From: Thermoflexus hugenholtzii
GTDB taxonomy: Bacteria; Chloroflexota; Anaerolineae; Thermoflexales; Thermoflexaceae
Assembly (NCBI RefSeq): GCF_018771565.1
Contig: NZ_CP076326.1
Coordinates: forward strand, 1 to 64,000
Length of the DNA stretch: 64,000 bases
Direction of reading: 5' to 3'
The notes beneath the pieces were generated by a model. That model did not search any database, was not told the DNA's origin, and saw only the letters and a program-made list of their open reading frames with translations. Below, piece by piece: positions 60,201-61,849 of this stretch; position 1 is the stretch's first letter; each line of letters starts with the position of its first letter. The position numbers and the translations under genes were made by a program.

Positions 60201-60229
60201 TTGACAGAAAAACCTGCGCGTGCTACATA
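60201..60229 (+). promoter_or_regulatory. Putative promoter of the sulfurtransferase leader
   Basis: A perfect TTGACA (60201-60206), a 17-bp spacer, then TACATA (60224-60229). It lies in a locally AT-rich patch between the methyltransferase and sulfurtransferase genes. The -10 is weaker than the -35. Confidence 0.5.
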
Positions 60230-60261: not shown

Positions 60262-60417
60262 ATGCGGATTGGGATCCGGCATCCACCGGCTGGCGCGAGG
60301 GGCGCTCCGCGGTTGCGGATCGCGCAGCGGGTGGATCTCATCTCCTCGATGAACACCTGTATCTGTCCTGAGCGGGGGCAGAAGGGGGCCGCCCGCTTGG
60401 GACGCGCGCCCCGCTGA
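60262..60417 (+). CDS. Candidate cysteine leader peptide upstream of the sulfurtransferase gene
   Basis: A 51-codon open frame from the ATG at 60262 with the segment QRVDLISSMNTCICPERG, with Cys codons at 60358-60360 and 60364-60366. The RVDL...C pattern resembles, from memory, the leader peptides encoded before cysteine genes and CysA2-type sulfurtransferases in actinobacteria. A shorter version could start from TTG at 60313 or ATG at 60349. GGAAGG is 12 nt upstream of 60262. Downstream hairpins begin right after the Cys codons. A regulatory rather than enzymatic role is inferred. Confidence 0.4.
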   Translation: MRIGIRHPPAGARGAPRLRIAQRVDLISSMNTCICPERGQKGAARLGRAPR

Positions 60418-60549
60418 GCGGAACCGACCTCCCTCTGCCCCCGCTTCTCCGCTTCCGGTCAACCCAACCTCCCTCCCTCTACCGGTTCTGTTCTCCCTGT
60501 CGTCAGTTGCCGTTTTCAATCCGCCAGGGGTGAGCGGAGAGCAGAACCG
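60371..60549 (+). promoter_or_regulatory. Structured leader with nested hairpins (attenuator candidate)
   Basis: AGCGGGGGCAGA (60371-60382) pairs perfectly with TCTGCCCCCGCT (60434-60445). CGGTTCTGTTCTCC (60483-60496) pairs with GGAGAGCAGAACCG (60536-60549), with 1 mismatch in 14. The first arm starts 5 nt after the second Cys codon of the leader ORF, as needed for ribosome-controlled folding. The rest of the gap to 60690 holds smaller GGGG/CCCC hairpins and the sulfurtransferase SD. Confidence 0.5.
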
Positions 60550-60690
60550 AAGGGGAGCCTAAGAGACCACCTTGGCGGAGGTGATCTTCCCTTTACAGGG
60601 AAAACGGATCCCCTTCGGGGGGAGGGGGATAGAGAAGTTGTTCTCCCAACCCGCCTGATTCCAAAAACTGAGCTTCAGGAGGGACCTGCC

Positions 60691-61536
60691 ATGGCGACGT
60701 ATGCGGATCCGCAGGCTTTGGTGGACACCGAGTGGGTGGCCCAGCACCTTCAGGATCCGAAGGTGCGGATCGTGGAGGTGGATTATGACCCGGCCAGCGC
60801 CTATCATCTGGGCCACATCCCGGGCGCGGTGCTCTTCGACTGGCGGAAGGATCTGAACGATCCAGTGCGGCGGGACATCCTGAGCAAGGAGGCCTTCGAG
60901 GCCCTCAACAGCCGCGCCGGGATCTCCAACGACACCACCGTGGTGCTTTACGGGGATTTCCGGAACTGGTTCGCGGCCTTCGCCTTCTGGATCTACAAGT
61001 ATTACGGCCATGCGGATGTGCGGTTGCTGAACGGCGGCCGCAAGAAGTGGATCGAGGAGAAACGCCCGCTCACCGAGGAAGTCCCTTCGTATCCCCCAAC
61101 CACCTATCGGGCTCAGGACCCGGACGCTCGGCTGCGGGCGCATCTGCCCTACGTCCTGAACGTGCTGGGCAAGCGCGGGGTGGCCCTGGTGGATGTGCGT
61201 TCCCCGGCGGAGTTCACCGGGGAGATCACCGCTCCGCCGGAGTATCCCAACGAGGCGGCCCAGCGGGGCGGCCACATCCCCGGCGCGGTGAACATCCCAT
61301 GGTCGAAGGCCCTCAACGACGATGACACCTTCAAGGATGCCGAGTCCCTGCGCCGGATCTATGAGGAGGCAGGGGTCACCCCGGACAAGGAGGTCATCAC
61401 TTACTGCCGCATCGGAGAGCGCTCCTCGGTGACCTGGTTCGTGTTGCGCCATCTGCTGGGCTATCCCAACGTCCGCAACTATGACGGCTCGTGGTCCGAG
61501 TGGGGCAACACGGTGGGGCTTCCCATCGAGCGCTGA
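60691..61536 (+). CDS. Thiosulfate sulfurtransferase (rhodanese), CysA2/SseA-like
   Basis: Transfers sulfane sulfur from thiosulfate or 3-mercaptopyruvate to acceptors. The 281-residue protein has two rhodanese domains. The active-site loop is C239-R-I-G-E-R244 in [17 protein letters not shown]. It is very similar over its length, from memory, to mycobacterial CysA2, including [20 protein letters not shown] and [14 protein letters not shown]. The ATG follows CAGGAGGGAC. It is preceded by the structured leader described here and followed by a TusA-like gene. Confidence 0.95.
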
Positions 61537-61606
61537 ACGACAGAAGGGCTGGGCGGGCGCCCGGCGCTCCCGCCCAGCCTTTGCTCCTCGGTAGTGGGAG
61601 GTGGGC

Positions 61607-61849
61607 ATGGCGCGGGTGGTGCGGACGGTGGATCTGCGGGCCGGGGTGGAGCTGTGCACGGATTCCCCGATCGGGCGGGTTCAGCAGGCCCTGGCTGGCC
61701 TGGGGCTGGAGGAGGCGGTGGCGGTGTGGGTGAAAGGCTACGCCGACGAGTTCACCGTCACCGCGTGGGCCAAGCGGAACGGCTATGCGGTCCTGGAGGT
61801 GCACCGGGAGGGCGAGGAGGCCCGCATCCTGCTGGGGATGTCCCCTTGA
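61607..61849 (+). CDS. TusA-like sulfur-carrier protein
   Basis: An 80-residue protein with a TusA-like fold: VDLRAGVELCTDSPIGRVQQA, with the Cys of the sulfur-binding motif in ELCTDSPI, and VLEVHREGEEARILLG. TusA-type proteins carry persulfide sulfur for delivery. The usual CPxP at the Cys is changed to CTDSP. The ATG at 61607 follows GGGAGGTGGG. It is 70 bp from the sulfurtransferase and probably accepts sulfur from it. Confidence 0.72.
   Translation: MARVVRTVDLRAGVELCTDSPIGRVQQALAGLGLEEAVAVWVKGYADEFTVTAWAKRNGYAVLEVHREGEEARILLGMSP

Follow-up and report, generated by a model that had tools for sequence, protein, structure and literature searches.

A cysteine-codon leader probably controls a CysA2-like rhodanese gene of Thermoflexus hugenholtzii as a divergent member of an Anaerolineae leader family

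Classical amino-acid attenuators such as trp, his, and ilv combine leader codons for the product amino acid with mutually exclusive pairings and a terminator. For cysteine, leader open reading frames (ORFs) rich in Cys codons have been described in actinobacteria, upstream of the Mycobacterium cys operons, cysA2/Msmeg_5788, and nirA/Msmeg_4527 (PMC1262725, PMC4633059). The actinobacterial leaders are leaderless, carry their Cys codons in runs close to the stop codon, and have no conserved terminator hairpin (PMC1262725); PMC13236596, citing Canestrari 2020, reports that those of mycobacteria work at the level of translation. In Rhodobacterales, the uORFC-8-2 motif upstream of cysS is predicted to attenuate transcription through its Cys codons (PMC8632094). 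Our literature search, which was incomplete in coverage, found no description of a Cys leader in Chloroflexota, and while ribosome-mediated cysteine attenuation is a known kind of control, in this phylum it is apparently undescribed.

How does the leader upstream of a rhodanese gene in Thermoflexus hugenholtzii compare with these systems? We analyzed a stretch of 64,000 nucleotides of this organism (here called the window) and compared its leader with others of the class Anaerolineae, which we divide into type I leaders, with an intrinsic terminator, and type II leaders, without one. Like the actinobacterial leaders, those of Anaerolineae are short upstream ORFs with Cys codons that precede sulfur or cysteine genes, a cysA2 rhodanese gene being among them in both groups. 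Unlike them, the Anaerolineae leaders have a C-x-C arrangement, an ATG ∼26 nt into the likely transcript (the distance seen at the rhodanese leader), and a conserved GCGGGG helix, with a U-tract terminator in type I. No motif common to the two groups was detected. The rhodanese leader also falls outside the mycobacterial definition of a polycysteine leaderless upstream ORF; its two Cys codons are separated, and 16 codons lie between the last of them and the leader stop. The first-pass annotation had drawn a parallel between its R-V-D-L residues and actinobacterial leaders. This parallel did not hold: the NCBI actinobacterial leader model NF042934 (cis_reg_atten) had no match in the organism's own genome even at E ≤ 10, and RVD, present in 7/8 rhodanese leaders of the genus, was found neither in its cysM and TsuA-like leaders nor in leaders of other families, which share C[ILM]C..RG. 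We therefore rejected RVDL as a family signature, as it is confined to the rhodanese leaders of the genus. The resemblance to uORFC-8-2 lies in a predicted ribosome-mediated attenuation that uses Cys codons and an intrinsic terminator; uORFC-8-2 differs in belonging to another phylum, in preceding a cysteinyl-tRNA synthetase gene, and in having tandem Cys codons inside a stem. With trp, his, and ilv, the Anaerolineae leaders share codons for the product amino acid and mutually exclusive pairings, plus the terminator in type I; they differ from these in that cysteine would be the amino acid sensed and in that type II leaders have no terminator and end their ORF between the helix arms.

The features of the locus, and of a second leader in the same genome, are as follows (gene names were assigned by homology).

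60201 to 60229, plus strand: sigma-70-like promoter, TTGACA-17-TACATA, by direct reading
60262 (ATG) to 60415-60417 (TGA), plus strand: leader ORF, MRIGIRHPPAGARGAPRLRIAQRVDLISSMNTCICPERGQKGAARLGRAPR and stop, by direct reading with conserved frame
60299 to 60305, plus strand: GGGGCGC, complementary to GCGCCCC (60406-60412) beside the stop codon
60358 to 60366, plus strand: putative regulatory codons TGT ATC TGT (Cys-Ile-Cys), with TGT at 60358 and at 60364
60371 to 60388, plus strand: 5' arm of the helix (segment 2), AGCGGGGGCAGAAGGGGG, with a perfect 12 bp at its base and pair covariation
60392 to 60397, plus strand: CCCGCT, possible competitor for pairing with 60371-60376 (1:2-like hairpin), invariant in ten type II leaders
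60429 to 60445, plus strand: 3' arm of the helix (segment 3), ending in TCTGCCCCCGCT, with pair covariation
60446 to 60535, plus strand: C-rich, G-poor tract 3' of the helix, at a guess a Rho loading region
60483 to 60549, plus strand: second hairpin (CGGTTCTGTTCTCC/GGAGAGCAGAACCG), pairing 60483-60496 with 60536-60549, clearly kept by the closest relative only
60691 to 61536, plus strand: CysA2-like two-domain rhodanese (thiosulfate sulfurtransferase), Pfam PF00581 at 1.7e-39 and PDB matches
61601 to 61849, plus strand: TusA-like small protein, PF01206 at 3.7e-05, below the gathering score
62034 to 62537, plus strand: short beta-carbonic-anhydrase-like protein, PF00484 at 2.6e-13
G000:C1:2836121-2836140, minus strand: second Cys leader, MRTGMKPVHCICPGRGR and stop (locus L206), upstream of a cysM-type cysteine synthase and a JAMM peptidase

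The promoter, the small ORF, and the Cys codons at 60358 and 60364 all read as the first-pass annotation had claimed, and the 12-bp arm from 60371 indeed begins inside the footprint of a ribosome stalled on those codons, the perfect 12-bp helix being formed by AGCGGGGGCAGA (60371-60382) with TCTGCCCCCGCT (60434-60445). The promoter was not called by a consensus scan; both of its hexamers are recognizable at 8/8 loci of the genus, with TATATA as the −10 hexamer in several relatives. Counting from the first Cys codon, the leader has no stop at +24 and terminates at +57, between the helix arms. We also agree that a U-rich terminator is absent: on the plus strand, no good stem followed by a U tract was found from the leader down to the rhodanese start codon. 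The rhodanese itself matched best, among PDB entries, 1uar (a rhodanese; 2.7e-115) and 3hwi/3aax (thiosulfate sulfurtransferases; 4.6e-96), from Thermus and Mycobacterium, respectively. The TusA-like and carbonic-anhydrase-like genes possibly belong to the rhodanese operon.

Conservation was evaluated in eight genomes, consisting of the window genome and seven genomes of the same genus with a rhodanese at 92 to 96% identity. The block at 60286-60446 is 91 to 97% identical across the seven relatives, and all eight genomes retain the promoter, the leader frame, both Cys codons, and the first helix. By comparison, the spacer between the helix and the rhodanese gene varies in length; its identity is only 21 to 28% in five relatives, rising to 57% in a sixth and 89% in the nearest. 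An in-frame ATG was found in 8/8 genomes with no stop over the aligned block, while both other frames contain stops. Thus, the frame and the Cys codons, whose conservation in relatives had been proposed as a check, are both kept; the codons (TGY-ATC-TGT, with one TGC replacing TGT) recur within the genus in the leaders of the TsuA-like and cysM genes. In the part of the ORF that precedes the Cys codons, substitutions showed no third-codon-position bias, suggesting that the N-terminal sequence of the leader peptide is not strongly selected. The second hairpin, at 60483-60549, does exist as annotated; it is recognizable only in the nearest relative (L003), and possibly in L007, and is not part of the conserved element.

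The helix is supported by covariation. Compensatory two-sided changes were found at 7/16 helix pairs, with 97.3% of cells paired, in a set of nine leaders (eight from rhodanese loci and one from a TsuA-like locus, the loop being removed to hold register) in which the TsuA-like copy, its register set by hand, is the source of many of the changes. None of 500 shuffles reached seven covarying pairs, and slid versions of the helix gave 0 to 3. Pairs 13:37 and 17:34 show two-sided changes among the rhodanese leaders alone as well. The GCGGGG arm (segment 2) lies in every leader at +14, counted from the first Cys codon; its segment 3 partner lies at +69 in 10/10 type II leaders, and the equivalent partner of type I leaders at +63 to +105. 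The 2:3 duplex had a mean z of −3.6 among type I leaders and −4.2 among those of type II. GGGGCGC and GCGCCCC, which may pair, both occur in rhodanese and TsuA-like leaders. In static folding of the rhodanese leader, a ribosome placed at the second Cys codon weakened the helix without abolishing it, and one placed at the first left it almost whole. Searches of Rfam with nine leader loci gave no match above the gathering score and, in the window region, only sub-threshold chance matches; no NCBIfam or Pfam family matching the leaders was found.

We then asked how widely such leaders occur. A first scan upstream of rhodanese orthologues in other families revealed short ORFs ending in C-x-C-x-x-R-G. 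The tight Cys motif, which was selected after inspecting the loci, occurred in 22/91 rhodanese loci of the same class outside the genus, compared to 0 on the reverse strand and a mean of 1.3 in dinucleotide shuffles; an untuned C.?C motif gave 49 forward, 18 reverse, and 26 shuffled matches. In other Chloroflexota classes, the tight motif was found in only 2/27 rhodanese loci (shuffle mean, 0.5). A DNA pattern of the leader core (Cys codons + GGCGGGG + CCRCCGCC), in which the downstream gene is not specified and outside which the segment 3 partner (+63 to +105) lay, had 42 matches in 396 genomes of the class versus 5 for a reversed control. Across GTDB (∼85,000 bacterial and archaeal species), the same pattern had 48 exact matches, every one in a record titled Chloroflexi, Chloroflexota, Anaerolineae, or a subgroup of these. 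Two of these stretches could not be classified, the sequence ending within 350 bases, and the 46 with usable downstream sequence all precede cysteine-synthesis or rhodanese genes: 26 are ahead of cysM and a JAMM peptidase gene (12 of those with a DUF4395 gene), 2 are ahead of cysM at a contig end, 9 precede cysK-cysE, 3 precede other clusters that include a cysteine synthase, and 6 precede a rhodanese. This tally of downstream genes is the strongest evidence that the leaders serve cysteine supply. The annotated idea of a Cys-codon leader outside Actinobacteria before a CysA2-like rhodanese is supported, and its link to cysteine is much strengthened by the same core preceding cysM, cysK-cysE, and TsuA-like genes.

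A stem with an immediate U tract was found 100 to 195 nt past the Cys codons in 35/35 type I leaders, compared to 2 to 10 (about 7) in shuffles. In these leaders, segment 2 (GCGGGG, +14) encodes the R-G of the peptide. The rhodanese leader does not fit the type I definition (C-x-C-x-x-R-G-[SR]-stop, a GCGGGG segment 2, and a U-tract terminator): it has C-I-C-P-E-R-G and the GCGGGG arm, but neither the stop at +24 nor the terminator. A covariance model of 42 leaders from other families (R1) placed the cysM leader of the genus at the top in 7/8 genomes, with weak E-values, and did not report the rhodanese leader at 60358 at E ≤ 10. Since R1 misses it, the rhodanese leader is tied to the family by the near-identical core of the cysM leader. 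The 3.3-Mb genome has exactly two occurrences of the core TGYATCTGTCCTGNGCGGGG, one at 60358 and one in the second leader, and the two cores are alike at 20/22 bases. Judged by these sequence features, we set the rhodanese leader apart as type II, a divergent member of the family.

All eight genomes of the genus that have the rhodanese carry the core at both the rhodanese and the cysM-JAMM loci, the rhodanese copy of G006 with 2 mismatches; it was not found in G007, the least complete genome of the genus. The cysM leader of the genus has a terminator with a U tract, GGACCAAC...GTTGGTCC-TTTTTATTT. A third copy, MARACICPRRGWEIAARFGLAPR and stop, of the same type as the rhodanese leader, lies ahead of a YeeE/TsuA-like transporter gene in G008 and G001 and was not found in the window's own genome. 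This copy is type II and is also without a U-tract terminator. In G008 and G001, the TsuA-like (thiosulfate transporter-like) gene is near a second rhodanese gene (L213 and L216).

Do Anaerolineae sense their cysteine supply through ribosome stalling? Our data suggest that they probably do. The leader frame, Cys codons, covarying helix, gene associations, and type I terminators were all observed computationally, and we consider it quite probable that the rhodanese gene is under a cysteine-codon leader-peptide attenuator, type II of an Anaerolineae leader family on cysteine-synthesis genes. From these features we infer that Cys-tRNA is what is sensed, as well as the direction of the response and the type II effector step. 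In type I, a short leader ending in C-x-C-x-x-R-G-[SR]-stop would be followed by three competing pairings. When Cys-tRNA is ample, the ribosome would reach the stop codon (+24) and cover segment 2, so that the intrinsic terminator forms and the genes are off. When Cys-tRNA is short, the ribosome would stall on the Cys codons, segment 2 would pair with segment 3, and transcription would continue; a ribosome stalled at the first Cys codon would leave segment 2 uncovered. The 2:3 pairing and the type I terminator should exclude each other, because their positions overlap or cross, and their competition is proposed by analogy to classical attenuation. When the cysM leader was folded with blocked footprints, terminator-region structure appeared in each of the three cases, with no separation of ON and OFF, because the terminator region dominates the energy. 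The case for the type I switch therefore lies in the competing pairings and not in the minimum free energy structures.

What, then, would the type II helix do? The rhodanese leader has product-amino-acid codons, pathway genes downstream, and the 2:3 pairing expected of attenuators in general, but not the intrinsic terminator that is found in 35/35 type I leaders, including the cysM leader of this genome. By its likeness to type I, the helix would act as ON. The likeliest reading is that a stalled ribosome permits prompt formation of the helix, which keeps transcription going; without it, the rhodanese would be turned down by premature termination, for which Rho acting on the C-rich tract is a possible agent. 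In 10/10 type II loci, C minus G in the tract after the helix lies in the 94th to 97th percentile of the windows of the locus, and a rho gene is encoded in the genome; on these grounds Rho-dependent termination is a possible output, although a guess. Taken alone, we hold this effector step only tentatively. By analogy to the 1:2 hairpin of type I leaders, CCCGCT at 60392-60397 may serve as a 1:2-like hairpin partner in type II. We lean slightly toward a single Anaerolineae cysteine regulon, in which homologous attenuators act on cysM-JAMM, cysK-cysE, rhodanese, and TsuA-like genes, with a derived terminator-less form that has its stop in the antiterminator loop and gives its output by Rho or another route.

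An opposite role for the helix is conceivable, in which the GC helix is itself a terminator or pause site (OFF) and a stalled ribosome covers its 5' arm, so that the gene is expressed under cysteine shortage. The great stability of the helix, the start of its 5' arm inside the footprint of the stalled ribosome, and the pyrimidine-rich tail behind it are all consistent with this. Nevertheless, there is no U tract, whereas cysM of the same genome uses a U-tract terminator; the position and sequence of the helix match the type I 2:3 pairing, a competitor of the terminator; and the helix stays almost whole with a ribosome on the first Cys codon. We regard this role as improbable. Somewhat less likely still is control of rhodanese translation, with segment 3 (CCTCC) or another stretch masking the distant Shine-Dalgarno (SD) sequence until stalling frees it. 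The missing U-tract terminator would fit, as would CCTCC within region 3 in 6/8 genomes and the reported control of mycobacterial cysteine genes by translation attenuation (PMC13236596, where it cites Canestrari 2020). The helix, though, lies 240 to 450 nt from the SD and start codon across an unconserved spacer, the type I relatives have transcription terminators, and CCTCC is lost in G004 (CCTTCC), in G006 (CCCCCC), and in both TsuA-like copies, yet the helix is kept. For lack of this conservation we rejected region 3 as a conserved anti-SD, and the earlier suggestion of control by RNA folding near the SD is not borne out by the distance, the spacer, and these losses.

Could the ORF instead encode a functional small protein, with the RNA helix and the cysteine link being secondary? 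Its length (∼50 amino acids) and its conservation to the C terminus, including AAR.G.APR in the TsuA-like copy, speak for a protein. On the other hand, the cysM leaders have only C-I-C-P-G-R-G-R in common with it, their N termini being of other lengths and sequences; no NCBIfam or Pfam family covers the peptide; and the conservation beyond the Cys codons coincides with the base-paired arms. We consider a protein function very improbable. The preferred reading of the rhodanese leader, as a type II cysteine attenuator, would, if true, mean that Chloroflexota have cysteine-responsive gene control that needs no regulator protein. It would reveal which genes count as cysteine supply in these mostly uncultured bacteria, the rhodanese and the TsuA-like transporter among them, and would mean that Cys leaders govern a cysA2-type gene in two phyla, apparently by different output mechanisms. 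A type II leader without a terminator beside a type I leader in one genome would also allow a direct comparison of how sensing leads to output.

Several other leaders deserve mention. Upstream of rhodanese genes at L119, L130, L155, L157, L159, L164, L129, L128, and L010, we found CCC or C.C leaders without the GCGGGG core, several of them followed by U-tract terminators; these possibly had independent origins. At L256 and L262, the leader core precedes a cluster with a MoeB/ThiF-like E1 gene and a cysteine synthase gene, with a thioredoxin-like ORF also present at L262, which suggests cysteine synthesis via a sulfur-carrier protein. At L175 and L180, the core lies directly 5' of a DUF4395 membrane protein gene (Pfam-confirmed in L175), which in L175 is followed by a thioredoxin-like gene and then cysK.
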